A stretch of DNA of 48,283 bases from Nanobdellota archaeon. Lineage in GTDB: Archaea > Nanobdellota > Nanobdellia > Pacearchaeales > GW2011-AR1. The position numbers were made by a program, and so were the translations under genes. The stretch lies in NCBI GenBank assembly GCA_030648285.1, contig JAUSIC010000003.1:1-48283 (forward strand). The letters run 5' to 3'. Under the pieces are notes generated by a model, which saw only the letters and a list, made by a program, of their open reading frames with translations, did not search any database and was not told the origin of the DNA. Each line of letters starts with the position of its first letter. Position 1 is the stretch's first letter. Shown here piece by piece: positions 5,366 to 28,686 of the stretch.

Positions 5366-5865
5366 CTAGAATGAGAAAAGTACCAAAGAGAAGAAGACAA
5401 GAAGGAAAAACAGATTATGCAAAAAGAATGAAATTGCTTAAAGGCAATTCTCCAAGAATAATCTTCAGAAGAACAAACAGATACATAATCAGCCAATATG
5501 TAACAAGCAAAGAAGCTCAAGACAAGATAGTTTTCGGAACAAGTTCAAAAGAATTATTGAAACATGGATGGCCGAAAGAAGCATCAGGAAGCTTGAAATC
5601 ATTAACAGCATCTTACTTTACAGGATTTTTAGCAGGAAAGAAAATACTAAAAGAAAAATTAAAAGCTCCAATTCTCGACTTTGGTATGAATCTTGTTCTT
5701 CACAAATCAAGAGAATTTGCATTCATAAAAGGACTTGTTGATTCTGGTGTTAAAATAAAAACAGAAGAAAAAGCCTTTCCTGAAGAATCAAGAATAAAAG
5801 GAGAACACATGAAGAATAAAGTTCCATTCGCAAAAATTAAAGAAAATATAGAAGGAGAAAAATAA
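5362..5865 (+). CDS. rpl18: Large-subunit ribosomal protein uL18
   Basis: 167 residues. Visible marks: RRRQEGKTDYAKRMKLLKGNSPRIIFRRTNRYIISQYV near the start (archaeal/eukaryotic L5-type), ASYFTGFLAGKKILK near residues 88-102, and the C-terminal FPEESRIKGEH. It binds 5S rRNA with uL5. One base separates its stop from the mini-ORF leader that precedes uS5. Confidence 0.95.
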   Translation: MTRMRKVPKRRRQEGKTDYAKRMKLLKGNSPRIIFRRTNRYIISQYVTSKEAQDKIVFGTSSKELLKHGWPKEASGSLKSLTASYFTGFLAGKKILKEKLKAPILDFGMNLVLHKSREFAFIKGLVDSGVKIKTEEKAFPEESRIKGEHMKNKVPFAKIKENIEGEK

Positions 5866-5866
5866 A

Positions 5867-5942
5867 ATGACAGAAATAGGAAATTTCACTGCAGACAAGA
5901 AGTCAGCCGTTCGTTCGTCAAAGCCGAGCGACAGCACAAATA
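5867..5942 (+). repeat. 76-base dispersed repeat, copy A
   Basis: Identical at all 76 positions to the reverse complement of 28584-28659, about 22.7 kb away. Both copies begin at the ATG of a leader mini-ORF and diverge after the CACAAATA block. No terminal inverted repeats or target duplications are seen. Confidence 0.9.
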
Positions 5943-5971
5943 CAAAATCGGCATGGAGGTATTTTGCATAA
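5867..5971 (+). CDS. Leader mini-ORF 2 (coupled to uS5)
   Basis: A 34-codon frame. It starts one base after the uL18 stop and its TAA (5969-5971) overlaps the uS5 ATG. The peptide begins MTEIGNFTADKKSAVR and ends STNTKSAWRYFA. The first 76 bases are identical to the start of the leader at 28659-28584 on the minus strand. The stretch at about 5905-5935 is clearly more GC-rich than the surroundings (CGT, TCG, CCG codons). The end KSAWRYFA is shared, base for base, with the leader before prefoldin alpha. No known protein family is recognised. Confidence 0.6.
   Translation: MTEIGNFTADKKSAVRSSKPSDSTNTKSAWRYFA
5943..5966 (+). promoter_or_regulatory. SD-presenting hairpin before uS5
   Basis: Arms CAAAAT (5943-5948) and ATTTTG (5961-5966) enclose a 12-base loop containing GGAGGT, a full six-base match to the archaeal anti-Shine-Dalgarno. 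Beyond an A-C mismatch the stem can add two more A-T pairs. GGAGGT ends 10 bases before the uS5 ATG. Confidence 0.6.
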
Positions 5972-6732
5972 TGGCAGAAGAAAAAACAGAAGAACAAATC
6001 AGCCAGGAAATGCTGGAAAAAGAACTTGAAAAAGAAATAATAGAAAAACAAGTAGTAGAAAGAAGCAAAGAAGAAATGGAGAGGGATGACAAGATTGCTT
6101 CTTGGGTTCCAAAAACAAAACTTGGAAGAGAAGTAAAAGAAGGAAAAATCAAAAAAATAGATGAAATTCTTGATGCTAAGCAAAAAATCTTAGAAGAACA
6201 AATTGTTGAAAAATTGCTTAATCTAAAATCAGATTTAATTTCAATTGGGCAATCAAAAGGAAAATTCGGTGGAGGAAAAAGAAGAGCCTGGAGACAAACT
6301 CAAAGAAAAACAAAAGAAGGGAATGTTCCGACTTTCTCAACAATGGCTGTTGTAGGAGATGGAAATGGGCATGTAGGAGTAGGCATGGGAGAAGCAAAAG
6401 AAACTCTTCCTGCAAGAGACAAAGCAATAAGAAAAGCAAAAATAAATATTATAAAAATTATCAGAGGATGCTCAAGTTTTGATTGCAATTGTTCTGAACC
6501 TCACACAATTCCATTTCAAGTAGAAGGAAAATCAGGAAGTGTAAGAATAACCTTGATTCCAGCACCTCAAGGAACAGGATTAGTTATCGGAAATGAATTG
6601 AAAAAAGTATTAAAACTCGCAGGAATTAAAGATGTATATAGCAAGACATTTGGAAGCATTAGAACAACTTTTAATTTTGTTCAAGCTTGCATGGATGCCT
6701 TGAAGAAAACAAACCCAATTTATAGAAAATGA
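5971..6732 (+). CDS. rps5: Small-subunit ribosomal protein uS5
   Basis: 253 residues from ATG 5971. A longer reading from 5953 is possible, but 5971 overlaps the leader stop and has GGAGGT upstream. The first 45 residues are a charged coiled-coil-like extension. The S5 core follows: GGGKRRAWRQTQRKTKEGNVPTFSTMAVVGDGNGHVGVGMGEAKE, then the S5 C-terminal domain VRITLIPAPQGTGLVIGNELKKVLKLAGIKDVYSKTFGS. uS5 shapes the mRNA entry site and decoding fidelity. Confidence 0.95.
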   Translation: MAEEKTEEQISQEMLEKELEKEIIEKQVVERSKEEMERDDKIASWVPKTKLGREVKEGKIKKIDEILDAKQKILEEQIVEKLLNLKSDLISIGQSKGKFGGGKRRAWRQTQRKTKEGNVPTFSTMAVVGDGNGHVGVGMGEAKETLPARDKAIRKAKINIIKIIRGCSSFDCNCSEPHTIPFQVEGKSGSVRITLIPAPQGTGLVIGNELKKVLKLAGIKDVYSKTFGSIRTTFNFVQACMDALKKTNPIYRK

Positions 6733-9273: not shown

Positions 9274-9882
9274 ATGGTAGACGAACAAGATAAAATGACA
9301 GGCATTATCCCAAATAAGGGTTCAATAAGCCATGAAGACAAGAAAGGAAGCATGCTGCCAATTGTAATTATCATGTTTATCTCTTTATTTATTGCATTTG
9401 CATGGGATAAATTTCCTGTTATAAAAAATTCTGTTCATGCTGTTTTAAATCCAACTGCAGGGGCATTATTAAAATTGAATATTCCTGGAGGATTAGAAAT
9501 TGGAATGATTATTATTGTTTTCCTGATTACCTTAATATCAACTTTAGTGCAGAAATTTGCTACAGACCAGAATGCATTAAGAGAATTAAAGAAAGAACAG
9601 AAAATTCTTAATGAAGAAATGAAAAAATATAAAGAACATCCTGAAAAAGTTGCAGAGCTTTCAAAAAAGCAAATGGAATTTATTCCAAAAACAATGAAAT
9701 TGACAAGCCGTTCAATGCTTTACACAGGTGTTCCATTTATTTTATTCTTTAGGTGGTTTAGCGATGTTTTTACTGCAATGGGAAATCCTAAATTCTTTGG
9801 CATAATGGGATGGTTCTTGTTCTACTTCATATTCACGATTGTGTTCTCTGCTATATTGAAGAAAGTAATGAAGGTTGTTTAA
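9274..9882 (+). CDS. EMC3/TMCO1/DUF106-type membrane insertase
   Basis: 202 residues. Three main hydrophobic segments lie near residues 27-45, 73-93 and 150-200 (the last probably two close helices). A charged coiled-coil hairpin, ALRELKKEQKILNEEMKKYKEHPEKVAELSKKQMEF, lies between the first and last parts. This layout is that of archaeal DUF106, members of the Oxa1/YidC/EMC3 superfamily that insert membrane proteins. Its place just downstream of secY is the usual archaeal location. It has its own TATA box. Confidence 0.85.
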   Translation: MVDEQDKMTGIIPNKGSISHEDKKGSMLPIVIIMFISLFIAFAWDKFPVIKNSVHAVLNPTAGALLKLNIPGGLEIGMIIIVFLITLISTLVQKFATDQNALRELKKEQKILNEEMKKYKEHPEKVAELSKKQMEFIPKTMKLTSRSMLYTGVPFILFFRWFSDVFTAMGNPKFFGIMGWFLFYFIFTIVFSAILKKVMKVV

Positions 9883-9911: not shown

Positions 9912-10021
9912 TTCGAAAGAAATAATTAAGGTGTATAACTTTAACGCCGAGTTTGACTAAAACGATTGTCATCAACTTAAATATCTACAAAAGGCTTCAA
10001 TTATTCTATTAACCCTCTCTA

Positions 10022-10036
10022 GGGTGGGCGGGTGGG
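10022..10036 (+). other. Perfect G-quadruplex motif
   Basis: GGGTGGGCGGGTGGG: four runs of three G with loops of one base each (T, C, T), the class that folds into very stable parallel G-quadruplexes. It stands in an AT-rich intergenic region about 12 bases before the TATA box of the prefoldin transcript. ACCCT/AGGGT (10014-10018 and 10021-10025; the second arm uses the first G run) could form a competing 5-bp hairpin. Confidence 0.8.
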
Positions 10037-10047
10037 ATTAAGACAAT

Positions 10048-10058
10048 AAATTTAAAAG
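10048..10058 (+). promoter_or_regulatory. TATA box for the leader/prefoldin transcript
   Basis: AAATTTAAAAG, centred about 27 bases before the leader ATG at 10080. The transcript is predicted to start near that ATG, so the mini-ORF itself would be read leaderless and prefoldin alpha through coupling. Confidence 0.55.
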
Positions 10059-10079: not shown

Positions 10080-10157
10080 ATGAAAAATAGGAAATTTTCC
10101 AATGTCCTCAGCATGAAACCTGCAGATACAAAATCGGCATGGAGGTATTTTGCATAA
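10080..10157 (+). CDS. Leader mini-ORF 3 (coupled to prefoldin alpha)
   Basis: A 25-codon frame starting MKNRKFSNVLSMKPADTK and ending SAWRYFA. The TAA at 10155-10157 overlaps the prefoldin ATG (TAATG). The last 32 bases or so match leader 2 before uS5 almost exactly, while the first part differs. AGGAAATTT near its start is shared with leaders 2 and 4. It stands at the head of its transcript, unlike leaders 1, 2, 4 and 5. Confidence 0.6.
   Translation: MKNRKFSNVLSMKPADTKSAWRYFA
10129..10152 (+). promoter_or_regulatory. SD-presenting hairpin before prefoldin alpha
   Basis: Arms CAAAAT (10129-10134) and ATTTTG (10147-10152), with GGAGGT in the loop, identical to the uS5 element. GGAGGT ends 10 bases before the ATG at 10157. 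Confidence 0.6.
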
Positions 10158-10558
10158 TGGAAGAACCTAATGAACAAGAAAAACAAGAACTAATGATGAA
10201 ACTAGGATTTTTCGAACAGCAAATAAGACAAATTCAGCAACAAATTCAGGCAATTGAACAAGGAATTGTTGAAATGACTTCATTAAATTCAGGACTTGAA
10301 GAATTACAAGGCAAAAAAGATGCAGAAATTCTTGCTCCAATTGGAAGAGGAATTTATGCTAAAGCAAAGTTACTTTCAGAAGAATTGATTGTCAATGTTG
10401 GAAGCAATAATCTTGTGACAAAAGGAATTTCTGAAACAAGAAAACTCATTGAAAGCCAGATTCAAAAACTAGAAGAAATCAAAGTTGAAATGAATAATAA
10501 TCTTGAGAATTTAGGAAAAGAAATTGAAAGTGTAATGGGTGAAAAGCACGAACATTAA
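10157..10558 (+). CDS. pfdA: Prefoldin subunit alpha
   Basis: 133 residues from ATG 10157. It has two long amphipathic helices (residues about 5-48 and 90-130) rich in Gln/Glu/Lys, joined by a beta-hairpin segment, AEILAPIGRGIYAKAKLLSEELIVNVGSNNLVTKG, which is the signature of the alpha class. Archaeal prefoldin is an alpha2-beta4 jellyfish-shaped chaperone that holds unfolded proteins. The start is fixed by the leader overlap and by GGAGGT. It ends 4 bases into the convergent gene on the other strand. Confidence 0.85.
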   Translation: MEEPNEQEKQELMMKLGFFEQQIRQIQQQIQAIEQGIVEMTSLNSGLEELQGKKDAEILAPIGRGIYAKAKLLSEELIVNVGSNNLVTKGISETRKLIESQIQKLEEIKVEMNNNLENLGKEIESVMGEKHEH

Positions 10559-15100: not shown

Positions 15101-15101
15101 A

Positions 15102-15158
15102 ATGAGCAAACAGGAAATTTGCCACAAATACAAAATAGATAAGAGGTATTTTGCATAA
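15102..15158 (+). CDS. Leader mini-ORF 4 (coupled to the GlcNAc-P-transferase-like gene)
   Basis: 18 codons, MSKQEICHKYKIDKRYFA. It starts one base after the aglB stop, and its TAA at 15156-15158 overlaps the next ATG. It is the shortest member that holds all the conserved blocks, so it may be closest to the basic form. CACAAATACAAAAT is read here as HKYKI, but in a different frame in the leader before uS5. Confidence 0.6.
   Translation: MSKQEICHKYKIDKRYFA
15131..15153 (+). promoter_or_regulatory. SD-presenting hairpin before the GlcNAc-P-transferase-like gene
   Basis: Arms CAAAATA (15131-15137) and TATTTTG (15147-15153), a 7-bp stem, with loop GATAAGAGG carrying the purine-rich GAGG. The start codon is at 15158. 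Confidence 0.6.
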
Positions 15159-16150
15159 TGGAAATTATACTGGTAATTCCCCTTCTTCTAAGCTTTTTAA
15201 TGGCTTTATTTTTAATGCCGTTTTGGATTAAAAAAGCTAAAGAGATTGGGCTTGTATGGGAAGATATGAACAAGCCAGAACATCCAAAGAATGTTGCTGG
15301 TTCTGGAGGGGTTGCAGTATTTTTAGCATTTATACTAGGAGTTTTAACATATATTGCCATAAAGACATTTTACTTCAAATCAAAAGATAATCTAATAGAA
15401 ATTTTTGCTTCTTTGAGTGTTATCTTGGTAATTTCATTTATTGGAATTTTAGATGATTTGTTAGGATGGAGAAAAGGAGGATTATCTGCAAAATCAAGAC
15501 TGGCTTTGTTATTGTTTGCATCTATTCCTTTGATTGTAATAAATGCAGGAGAATCAAATATATTTGGAAATGTAGAATTAGGATTGATATATCCTCTGGT
15601 TTTTATCCCTCTCGGAATAATTGGAGCATCAGCAACCTTTAATTTCTTAGCAGGTTATAATGGATTGGAAACAAGCCAGGGAATATTGATATTATCCAGT
15701 CTTTCATTAATAACATTTACAACAGGAGAAAAATGGCTTTCAATAATTATTTTATGCATGGTTGCTTCTTTAATTCCTTTTTATCTTTTTAATAAATATC
15801 CTGCAAAAGTTTTTCCAGGGAATATAATTACCTATTCTGTAGGAGGTTTAATTGCAATGATAGCTATACTTGGAAATTTGGAAAAAATTGCTATCTTCTT
15901 TTTCATCCCCTATATCTTAGAAACAATCCTGAAAGTTAGAGGAAAATTAAAAAAACAAAGTTTTGCAAGGGTAAATCCTGACGGAAGTTTGGAAGTGCCT
16001 TATGAAAAAATTTATGGGTTGGAACATTTGGCAATATTTATTTTAAAAAAGGTAAAAAAGAAGGTTTATGAGAAAGATGTTGTTTATCTCATAAATGGGT
16101 TTCAGATATTTATAATAATATTAGGAATGATATTATTCTGGAGACCTTAA
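15158..16150 (+). CDS. GlcNAc-1-phosphate transferase, MraY/WecA/Alg7 family (AglH-like)
   Basis: 330 residues with about ten hydrophobic segments. LDDLLG at residues 98-103 holds the paired aspartates that bind Mg and the lipid phosphate. NFLAGYNGLETSQG near 162-175 holds the conserved Asn/Asp region. The C-terminal loop with the FARVNPDGSLEVPYEKIYGLEH segment matches Alg7-type archaeal and eukaryotic enzymes. It would start the lipid-linked glycan by moving a sugar-1-phosphate from UDP-sugar to dolichyl phosphate. The location between aglB and a flippase-like gene supports this. The exact sugar is inferred. Confidence 0.85.
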   Translation: MEIILVIPLLLSFLMALFLMPFWIKKAKEIGLVWEDMNKPEHPKNVAGSGGVAVFLAFILGVLTYIAIKTFYFKSKDNLIEIFASLSVILVISFIGILDDLLGWRKGGLSAKSRLALLLFASIPLIVINAGESNIFGNVELGLIYPLVFIPLGIIGASATFNFLAGYNGLETSQGILILSSLSLITFTTGEKWLSIIILCMVASLIPFYLFNKYPAKVFPGNIITYSVGGLIAMIAILGNLEKIAIFFFIPYILETILKVRGKLKKQSFARVNPDGSLEVPYEKIYGLEHLAIFILKKVKKKVYEKDVVYLINGFQIFIIILGMILFWRP

Positions 16151-16152
16151 TA

Positions 16153-16356
16153 ATGAGCAAACAAGAAATTAAATTCGCGACCTCACTAATATGGATTAAA
16201 CGTGAAATCGCTCACCACAAATACAAAATCGACAGGAGTGAATGGAAACGAACAGGAAGTTCATTTCACGCTCTTTTTCAAAAAGTGAATGACAAGAAAG
16301 AAACATTATTTTTAGGAAAAAATAACGAAGAAAAATATCGGAGGTATTTTGCATAA
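16153..16356 (+). CDS. Leader mini-ORF 5 (long form, coupled to the flippase-like gene)
   Basis: A 67-codon frame. It starts MSKQEIKF and ends EEKYRRYFA, with the TAA overlapping the next ATG (16354-16356). It contains an internal copy of the CACAAATACAAAATCG block (16216-16231), followed by AGGAG and an ATG at 16242 that opens a nested 16-codon frame ending in TGA at 16292. The element thus looks like an older leader extended or fused to a second one. The peptide between the ends has no recognised family. Confidence 0.55.
   Translation: MSKQEIKFATSLIWIKREIAHHKYKIDRSEWKRTGSSFHALFQKVNDKKETLFLGKNNEEKYRRYFA
16332..16350 (+). promoter_or_regulatory. SD-presenting hairpin before the flippase-like gene
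   Basis: Arms AAAATA (16332-16337) and TATTTT (16345-16350), with loop TCGGAGG. The 5' arm is embedded in a sequence unlike the other leaders, yet the pairing and the exposed GGAGG are kept. The start codon is at 16356. Confidence 0.6.
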
Positions 16357-17297
16357 TGAAAATTAGAAAACTTTTGCCTATAATAGGAATTTTAATCTTT
16401 CTGTACATTTTAATAAGATTAGATATAAGAAAAGTCTTATTAGAAATCAGCCAGGCAAAAGTAAATTTTCTGTTAATTGCTGTATTATTCATTTTCATTT
16501 CCTTTTTAACAGAAACATTAAAATGGTTTTCAATAGCAAGAGTGCAAAAAACTAATATTCCTTTTTTTAAGGCAGTAAAAGTAAATCTAATCAGTTCTTT
16601 TTATGGATTCATAACTCCTTCAAAAGTGGGGGGGGTAATACGTGCAAAATATTTGAAAGAATACAACAACAATGTCGGAAAAGGAGTTGGAAATTTTATA
16701 TTGGACAAGGTTTTGGATGTATGTTCCTTAGTGTTTTTAGCAATATTATTTTCTTTTGTGTTTAGAGAGTTTCTTCCAATTAATTTTTTCTATTACTCAA
16801 TTGCCCTGCTTTCATTGATGATAATATTTCTATTCATCTTTTTTGATATGAGGAAGAGCAGATTTTTTCTAAAGATAGTCTATAAAAGATTCATTCCAAA
16901 GAGATGGAAAGAAAGAGCAAGAAAAGAATTTTATTCTTTCTATGAAGATATGCCTAAAAAAAGATATTTTTTCCTATTTTTTCTCTTAAACATTCTTAAT
17001 TGGATTGTCTTATATTCTATAAGCTTTTTTATTGGAAAATCTATTGGAATAAACCTCTCTTTCTTTTATTTCTTAGCAATTCTTCCAATAGCTACTTTAG
17101 TTGCACAGATACCAATAACAATCTCTGGATTAGGTACAAGAGAGGCAATCTTAATCACTTTATTCGGATTAGTGGGAATTGATAAAACAAAAGTATTTTC
17201 AATGTCCATGATAAATCTGTTCATAGGAGCTGTTATTCCTTCTGCAGTAGGTTGGATTTTAAGTCTGAAAAACAATAAAAATTATAAACAAACCTAA
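16356..17297 (+). CDS. Flippase-like membrane protein (UPF0104/LPG synthase TM family)
   Basis: 313 residues with about eight membrane segments. Family signatures are FYGFITPSKVGGVIRAKYLKEY near residues 84-105 and VAQIPITISGLGTREAILITLFGLVG near 248-273. Members are polytopic proteins linked to lipid-linked sugar or aminoacyl-lipid translocation. In archaea they often neighbour dolichol-sugar genes. Coupling to the GlcNAc-P-transferase gene through leader 5 suggests a part in glycan-lipid transfer. Eight G in a row at 16628-16635 (coding V-G-G) are worth care for sequencing errors; the frame reads through intact. Confidence 0.8.
   Translation: MKIRKLLPIIGILIFLYILIRLDIRKVLLEISQAKVNFLLIAVLFIFISFLTETLKWFSIARVQKTNIPFFKAVKVNLISSFYGFITPSKVGGVIRAKYLKEYNNNVGKGVGNFILDKVLDVCSLVFLAILFSFVFREFLPINFFYYSIALLSLMIIFLFIFFDMRKSRFFLKIVYKRFIPKRWKERARKEFYSFYEDMPKKRYFFLFFLLNILNWIVLYSISFFIGKSIGINLSFFYFLAILPIATLVAQIPITISGLGTREAILITLFGLVGIDKTKVFSMSMINLFIGAVIPSAVGWILSLKNNKNYKQT
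17281..17288 (+). promoter_or_regulatory. TATA box inside the end of the flippase gene
   Basis: ATTATAAA centred about 25 bases before the ATG at 17310. It suggests a separate leaderless transcript for the radical SAM gene, although the gap between the genes is only 12 bases. Confidence 0.45.
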
Positions 17298-28511: not shown

Positions 28512-28561
28512 TACATAAAATCTCCTATTTTATGTTTGTGGCAAATCTCCTGTTTGCTCAT
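28511..28561 (-). CDS. Leader mini-ORF 6 (second of a tandem pair, coupled to the GT39-like gene)
   Basis: 16 codons, MSKQEICHKHKIGDFM. The ATG overlaps the stop of the preceding leader (TAATG) and the TAA overlaps the ATG of the GT39-like gene (TAATG). The first seven residues equal those of leader 4, but with CAG kept and GAA changed to GAG, a synonymous difference. Confidence 0.6.
   Translation of the reverse strand: MSKQEICHKHKIGDFM
28513..28535 (-). promoter_or_regulatory. SD-presenting hairpin before the GT39-like gene
   Basis: On the minus strand the arms are ACATAAAAT and ATTTTATGT, a perfect 9-bp stem, with the five-base loop AGGAG, a clear Shine-Dalgarno. The ATG follows the stem by one base. 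It is the strongest stem in the family. Confidence 0.7.
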
Positions 28562-28659
28562 TATGAAAATTCTTCTGAATTTTTATTTGTGCTGTCGCTC
28601 GGCTTTGACGAACGAACGGCTGACTTCTTGTCTGCAGTGAAATTTCCTATTTCTGTCAT
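28561..28659 (-). CDS. Leader mini-ORF 7 (first of a tandem pair)
   Basis: A 32-codon frame beginning MTEIGNFTADKKSAVR and ending STNKNSEEFS. The front is identical to leader 2 over 76 bases, and the end resembles leader 1. It is therefore a mosaic of two other leaders. The TAA overlaps the ATG of leader 6. A TATA-like TTTTTTAA (28683-28690) lies about 27 bases before its ATG, so it probably opens the transcript. Confidence 0.6.
   Translation of the reverse strand: MTEIGNFTADKKSAVRSSKPSDSTNKNSEEFS
28566..28583 (-). promoter_or_regulatory. Hairpin before leader mini-ORF 6
   Basis: Arms AAAATTC and GAATTTT on the minus strand, loop AGAA. The same stem as at 1854-1871, but with a degenerate purine-rich loop (AGAAGA) in place of GGGAG. 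Confidence 0.5.
28584..28659 (-). repeat. 76-base dispersed repeat, copy B
   Basis: Reverse complement is identical to 5867-5942 at every position. It forms the front part of leader mini-ORF 7. Confidence 0.9.
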
Positions 28660-28686
28660 TATATGATTTGTTATATTGATTATTTT

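Follow-up and report, generated by a model that had tools for sequence, protein, structure and literature searches.

Selected roles for G-quadruplexes (G4s) in prokaryotes are contested, since most surveys are confounded by base composition. Polar chromosomal motifs of the KOPS and Chi type lie on the G-rich leading strand, occur also within genes and have no G4 or hairpin, while REP/BIME elements and IS200/IS605-derived repeats are fixed-sequence palindromes recognised by a Y1 transposase. An archaeal G4 survey gives overall frequencies, Pacearchaeota included, and in the portion of it accessible to us no polar class with one-base loops of the kind reported here is described (PMC7565180); a 2026 study has Haloferax volcanii as its subject (PMC12873603). 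Among the archaeal genomes analysed, only one group, the methanogen family Methanomicrobiaceae, was reported to be rich in repetitive PQS (Chashchina 2021, PMC8044849); there, similar copies within a genome combine a 3-5 nt central loop with a conserved C-rich 3' tract of 10-12 nt, and where G4 formation was shown with oligonucleotides. The GGGAATC repeats of Xanthomonas and Nostoc (Rehm 2015, PMC4692102) are tandem heptamers that lie closer to the 5' neighbour and explicitly have no leading/lagging preference, and the intrastrand triplex motifs of E. coli (Holder 2015, PMC4666352) form a triplex hairpin, follow a fixed consensus and show no strand-orientation bias.

The motif and its neighbourhood in the window

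In the window, by which we mean the whole stretch of 48,283 nucleotides analysed, a pattern search placed the one-base-loop G-quadruplex motif GGGTGGGCGGGTGGG on the + strand at 10022-10036, exactly as in the original prediction. The motif has the loops T, C and T, is followed on its 3' side by ATTAAGACAATAAA and reaches a G4Hunter score of 2.33 over its 15 nt; as a sequence pattern it agrees with the canonical G-quadruplex definition (four runs of at least three G, loops of 1-7), and its assignment to the type regarded as the most stable class of G4 is borne out by the sequence. When loop lengths of 1-12 were scanned it was the sole G3 motif in the whole window. Its own genome (621,814 bp in 25 contigs, Pacearchaeota) yielded GGGTGGGCGGGTGGG as the only match at up to two mismatches and the window motif as the single occurrence of GGGNGGGNGGGNGGG, these counts covering the intact pattern or up to two mismatches, with weaker G4s read in stretches only.

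The motif starts 139 bases past the end (9882) of a gene for an EMC3/TMCO1-like membrane protein (9274-9882, + strand, PF01956), the neighbour that had been named for it; the closest named relative found for this protein was a Candidatus Pacearchaeota MAG protein (65% identity). Downstream, all on the + strand, follow a putative TATA-box-like TTTAAAA (10051-10057), a leader ORF MKNRKFSNVLSMKPADTKSAWRYFA (10080-10157), whose 3' half is repeat B and whose stop overlaps the prefoldin ATG (TAATG), and a prefoldin subunit gene (10157-10558, PF02996). The motif thus does lie just upstream of a putative promoter, at 14 nt from TTTAAAA and not at the ~12 originally given, and TTTAAAA itself stands ~26 nt before the leader ATG (10080), a spacing typical of archaeal promoters with a leaderless start. 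The competing hairpin that had been proposed as one arm of a switch, ACCCT-CTCT-AGGGT (10012-10025, + strand), is present in the sequence and would use the first G-run, but the switch looks weak, with ~-8 kcal/mol for the hairpin against ~-36 kcal/mol for the G4 in an RNA energy model that has no DNA G4 term. An intrinsic-terminator scan near the G4 found no T-run terminator (the promoter scan run with it used a bacterial sigma-70 model, not an archaeal one), a Rfam search gave no RNA family match above gathering score, and a tRNA scan of the window found no tRNA.

Control specific to prefoldin was examined in the way first suggested, by reading the region upstream of prefoldin in relatives, and there the motif was absent except for a degenerate tract in the closest relative, G013 (EMC3 identity 67%). 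In the other relatives read the EMC3 and prefoldin genes often almost touch, and the gaps between them hold no G4. Only G013 has a comparable, promoter-sized gap, in which CTGAGCGAAGCGAAGTTATCTC precedes the degenerate G-rich tract GGGGTAGTGGTGG; as CTGAGCGAAGCGAAGTTATCTC resembles the CTGAGCAAAGCGAAGTTATCGCA that precedes a perfect G4 elsewhere in G013 (L145), this gap and that of the window have a type of element in common but differ in the precise motif. Prefoldin-specific conservation, not being seen among the relatives read, was rejected. A regulator or hairpin/G4 switch dedicated to the leader-prefoldin promoter draws on the closeness of the G4 to the TATA-like box and on the G013 tract at the same place, yet we regard it as highly improbable, given the other relatives without a G4 before prefoldin, a hairpin far weaker than the G4 in the RNA model, and the indifference to genes of the G4 class to which the motif belongs.

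On its 5' side the G4 is abutted by repeat A, a dispersed intergenic repeat (9957-10019, + strand; core 9987-10011) that ends in ATTAAC and a pyrimidine tract. With up to three mismatches allowed, the 25-base core has at least 32 copies genome-wide (reversed control, 0); the copies sit between genes in both orientations and many end in the same ATTAAC and pyrimidine tract, but among the repeat A copies of this genome only that of the window continues into a G4. A consensus RNA fold of repeat A was sought on both strands and none was found. The window G4 may be a remnant, being the only intact member where the many other copies of repeat A in the genome have no G4.

Repeat B is a recurrent leader, ACAAAATCGGCATGGAGGTATTTTGCATAATG, with a MTEIGNF...NTKSAWRYFA-like mini-ORF, and precedes unrelated genes; at least 15 distinct copies were seen, before many genes, with a leader stop that overlaps the gene ATG (TAATG) and a Shine-Dalgarno-like GGAGGT. 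It occurs in the window at 10080-10159, 5867-5974, 15101-15160, 16331-16360 and, on the minus strand, 28525-28664, and elsewhere in the genome at loci L098-L121. Judged from these sequences, it looks like a translation-coupling leader cassette. Positions 5862-5949 and 28577-28664 form an 88-nt inverted repeat (97% complementary), one arm belonging to the ribosomal protein S5 leader and the other to a leader on the minus strand; it was read as a recent duplication of repeat B.

Abundance and placement of the class across the family

The pattern GGGNGGGNGGGNGGG was carried by 45 of the 180 genomes of the window's Pacearchaeota family, with up to ~30 G4s per genome (31 in G091, loops non-G), as against 2 of 246 genomes, with 3 matches, outside the family in a 279-genome phylum sample. 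A composition-matched scrambled pattern (12 G and 3 N, runs 2-4-2-4) had ~10 isolated matches in the 180 family genomes, where the G4 pattern had far more than 150, matches in poly-G runs and tandem arrays being set aside; since the scrambled pattern is so much rarer, base composition is not the explanation. The long stretches, 1.08 Mb in total, contained 43 perfect copies and 16 in which one G was changed, whereas a Markov control yielded neither kind. Chance and composition were rejected on the strength of the scrambled control, the phylum sample and the Markov sequences, and the early judgement that such a run is unlikely by chance holds. One-base loops are the most common loop class, and across the class the twelve Gs are preserved while the loop bases vary; the G4 before a tRNA-Leu-like gene common to G140 and G155, for instance, has the loops T,T,A in one and C,T,C in the other. 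With its one-base loops, intergenic site and free loop bases, the window motif fits this class by sequence.

Several G4s lie within ~30 bases of contig ends (L140, L159 and L190; G154:C13:5, G200:C24:7, G126:C37:30 and G178:C98:26), which looks like a break in assembly or sequencing at these places. A viral origin was considered and rejected, neither the repeat A core nor the TTAAC-pyrimidine-G4 arrangement occurring in viral contigs as exact patterns.

Within the fetched loci, 26 of 94 G4s (28%) fell inside ORFs, whereas 84% of points drawn at random from these loci did so (p ~1e-33), ORFs here being simple open-frame calls of at least 70 codons, not curated genes. The 62 G4s with both neighbours lie nearer to the 3' neighbour (median 58 nt, against 161 nt on the other side), and the gene directions around them were 14 same, 19 opposite, 16 divergent and 13 convergent. 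Because gene orientation around the G4s is random, gene-directed regulation was rejected, and as the motif ignores gene direction family-wide, the class does not act as a promoter or terminator device would. A related proposal is that the elements mark transcription boundaries, a G4 in RNA or template stalling the polymerase and so isolating adjacent units, while reverse-oriented G4s, unstable in replication, would be lost and leave a polarity behind. The intergenic sites close to the start or stop of the next gene on the 3' side suit such a role, as do the several G4s, that of the window included, that stand just before a TATA-like box; nevertheless, G4s are as numerous in divergent gaps, where a terminator would have no use, as in convergent ones, and G4 direction is random relative to transcripts, so that we consider this explanation unlikely.

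Strand polarity, hairpins and repeat units

Relative to the chromosome, by contrast with genes, G4 orientation is strongly ordered. Neighbouring G4s on the same contig were co-oriented in 48 of 50 pairs, and the two discordant pairs lie on G100:C20 and on G110:C42, where the skew fades close to the reversed element. When the orientations of the 171 listed non-poly-G elements were shuffled within genomes (20,000 trials), discordant pairs averaged 19.8 and numbered at least 7 in every trial (permutation p<=5e-5). The strand carrying the G4 was C-rich, with negative fourfold-site GC skew, at 84 of 98 loci; as loci that share a contig cannot be treated as independent, the count per genome, where the mean was negative in 32 of 34, is the safer figure. 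All 16 loci of G091 were negative (mean skew -0.74) with genes of either strand, and G070 (8/8), G121 (6/6) and G108 (5/5) had a C-rich G4 strand without exception, with genes of both strands. Skew over long stretches agrees in G091, G114 and G110, and weakly in G118. Counting against the polarity are G100, which shows no clear skew, and the mixed orientation of repeat A along contigs. The window has practically no fourfold-site skew (0.03 and 0.05) and its genome one G4 copy; the polarity of G4s on the C-rich strand therefore rests on the relatives, not on the window's own genome.

Mutational skew cannot have produced the G-run, since it sits on the G-poor strand. The majority of the stretches with strong skew have more of their genes on the G-rich strand than on the other, as would be expected if the G-rich strand were the leading one, which we infer it to be. 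On contig G118:C3 (623,136 bases; L294-L300, L322-L337) fourfold-site skew keeps one sign across nearly all sampled stretches. This contig is about genome-length and shows no skew switch near orc1/cdc6 (99,951-101,048), which was accordingly rejected as a marker of such a switch; with one G-rich strand and no switch there, skew does not settle fork direction. One bacterial genome with such uniform skew has been interpreted as replicating unidirectionally (PMC7143001). The polarity could alternatively come from survivorship or from insertion bias.

In G091, 17 of 26 elements can form at least 12 of the 18 pairs of a stem that encloses the G4 and has the same two-base bulge throughout. An alignment of 16 elements had 94% of cells paired, a percentage inflated by the selection of aligned members for pairing in that register; compensatory changes occur at 15 of 18 pairs, and the covariation score was 0.645 compared with 0.179 when shuffled, sliding the partner abolishing the signal. 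The stems therefore vary in sequence between copies yet remain complementary, with the G4 as the hairpin loop. Such bridging stems were also seen in G200, G196, G030, G169, G170, G118 and some G121 loci and were absent from most loci of G100, G129, G070 and G110, and from the window, whose bridging z of -1.8, against -4 to -8 at most G091 loci, sets it outside the G4-in-hairpin-loop type. A second architecture consists of TTAAC and a short, often pyrimidine-rich block followed by the G4; here the window (ATTAACCCTCTCTA-GGG) and two G100 copies (ATTAACCTTCTTTA-GGG) match almost letter for letter. The G100 unit of ~130 nt has ~20 copies, partly in tandem, many of them with decayed G-runs.

Some genomes have loci with a small perfect hairpin directly before the G4 (L073, L148, L149, L089, L154), several of these with a GAA loop, e.g. 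TTTGCGCCGAAGGCGCAAAT. At L157 and L160 of G121 a covarying hairpin (arms GACAGCGCTAAAC...GTTTAGCGCTGTC and GACAACGCTCAAC...GTTGAGCATTGTC) directly precedes the G4, and an outer inverted repeat encloses both.

These units raise the possibility of selfish or repeat-type elements, i.e. non-autonomous intergenic copies mobilised by a transposase that acts on single strands, of the IS200/IS605 or REP/RAYT kind. The G100 unit, repeat A and the G091 hairpins would then be the copies, the G4 their terminal recognition structure, and the polarity a product of insertion into one replication template. Dispersal in either orientation to genes, the tandem G100 units with decayed internal G-runs, the G4 at one unit end and the strand polarity are all compatible with this. 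However, the G091 stems differ while staying complementary, unlike recent identical copies, the layout persists between genera while sequences differ, repeat A is of mixed orientation in the window's genome, and exact-pattern searches of viral contigs returned no copies. On balance we hold an origin by transposition to be possible but doubtful.

Interpretation and comparison with known systems

The window G4 is a member of a family-wide class that is non-random, intergenic and gene-indifferent, keeps its G-runs and, in relatives, is strand-polarised. To the reading of this class as polar DNA-level elements tied to replication or chromosome handling we assign a probability of roughly 45%, and the evidence points to chromosome handling more than to switching of the prefoldin gene. 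If the G-rich strand is leading, the G-run on the C-rich strand would lie in the leading-strand template, and the G4 might be folded or read as a replication fork or chromosome translocase passes, serving, for example, as a pausing, orienting or landing site. Since the G4s sit at repeat ends near the next gene, they would also come to lie beside promoters, as with prefoldin here, without being their switch.

More speculative, and in our view rather improbable as a whole, is the full proposal that Pacearchaeota chromosomes are marked by polar G4 elements, in some lineages in the loops of covarying DNA hairpins, by which replication forks or a chromosome translocase would be paused or given a direction; if true, these would amount to a structure-based equivalent, in archaea, of polar signals such as KOPS or Ter. 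The genomes are AT-rich and the motif stands on the strand where composition disfavours a G4, its Gs kept and its loops free. Together with the compensatory stems and the single orientation per contig, this is exceptionally clear evidence that a DNA structure is either under selection or deposited directionally, and it comes from archaea about whose replication and segregation signals little is known.

The Methanomicrobiaceae PQS are likewise archaeal, interspersed and intergenic, near gene starts and ends (PMC8044849). The Pacearchaeota class of putative G4s differs from them in that all loops are of one base, the loop bases are free, the 3' C tract is missing and the elements are strand-polar; the window motif, correspondingly, has neither a directly 3' C-rich tract nor a 3-5 nt central loop. 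The GGGAATC repeats share the intergenic location, the indifference to gene direction and an asymmetric distance to the neighbours (PMC4692102), whereas the Pacearchaeota elements are single 15-mers, as in the window, polarised as a class and closer to the 3' neighbour. Common ground with the E. coli triplex motifs lies in being a short, conserved, intergenic, G-rich structural repeat (PMC4666352). Motifs of the KOPS, Chi and Ter type are likewise short and oriented along the chromosome. A KOPS-like signal, however, has many leading-strand copies that point to the terminus, a description that does not suit the Pacearchaeota class, which is intergenic with its G-runs on the C-rich strand, nor the window's genome with its one copy. 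Finally, REP/BIME and IS200/IS605 repeats are also dispersed extragenic elements with hairpins and a possible replication-strand bias; in the Pacearchaeota class, by contrast, the stems vary by compensation and the constant part is the G4 motif.
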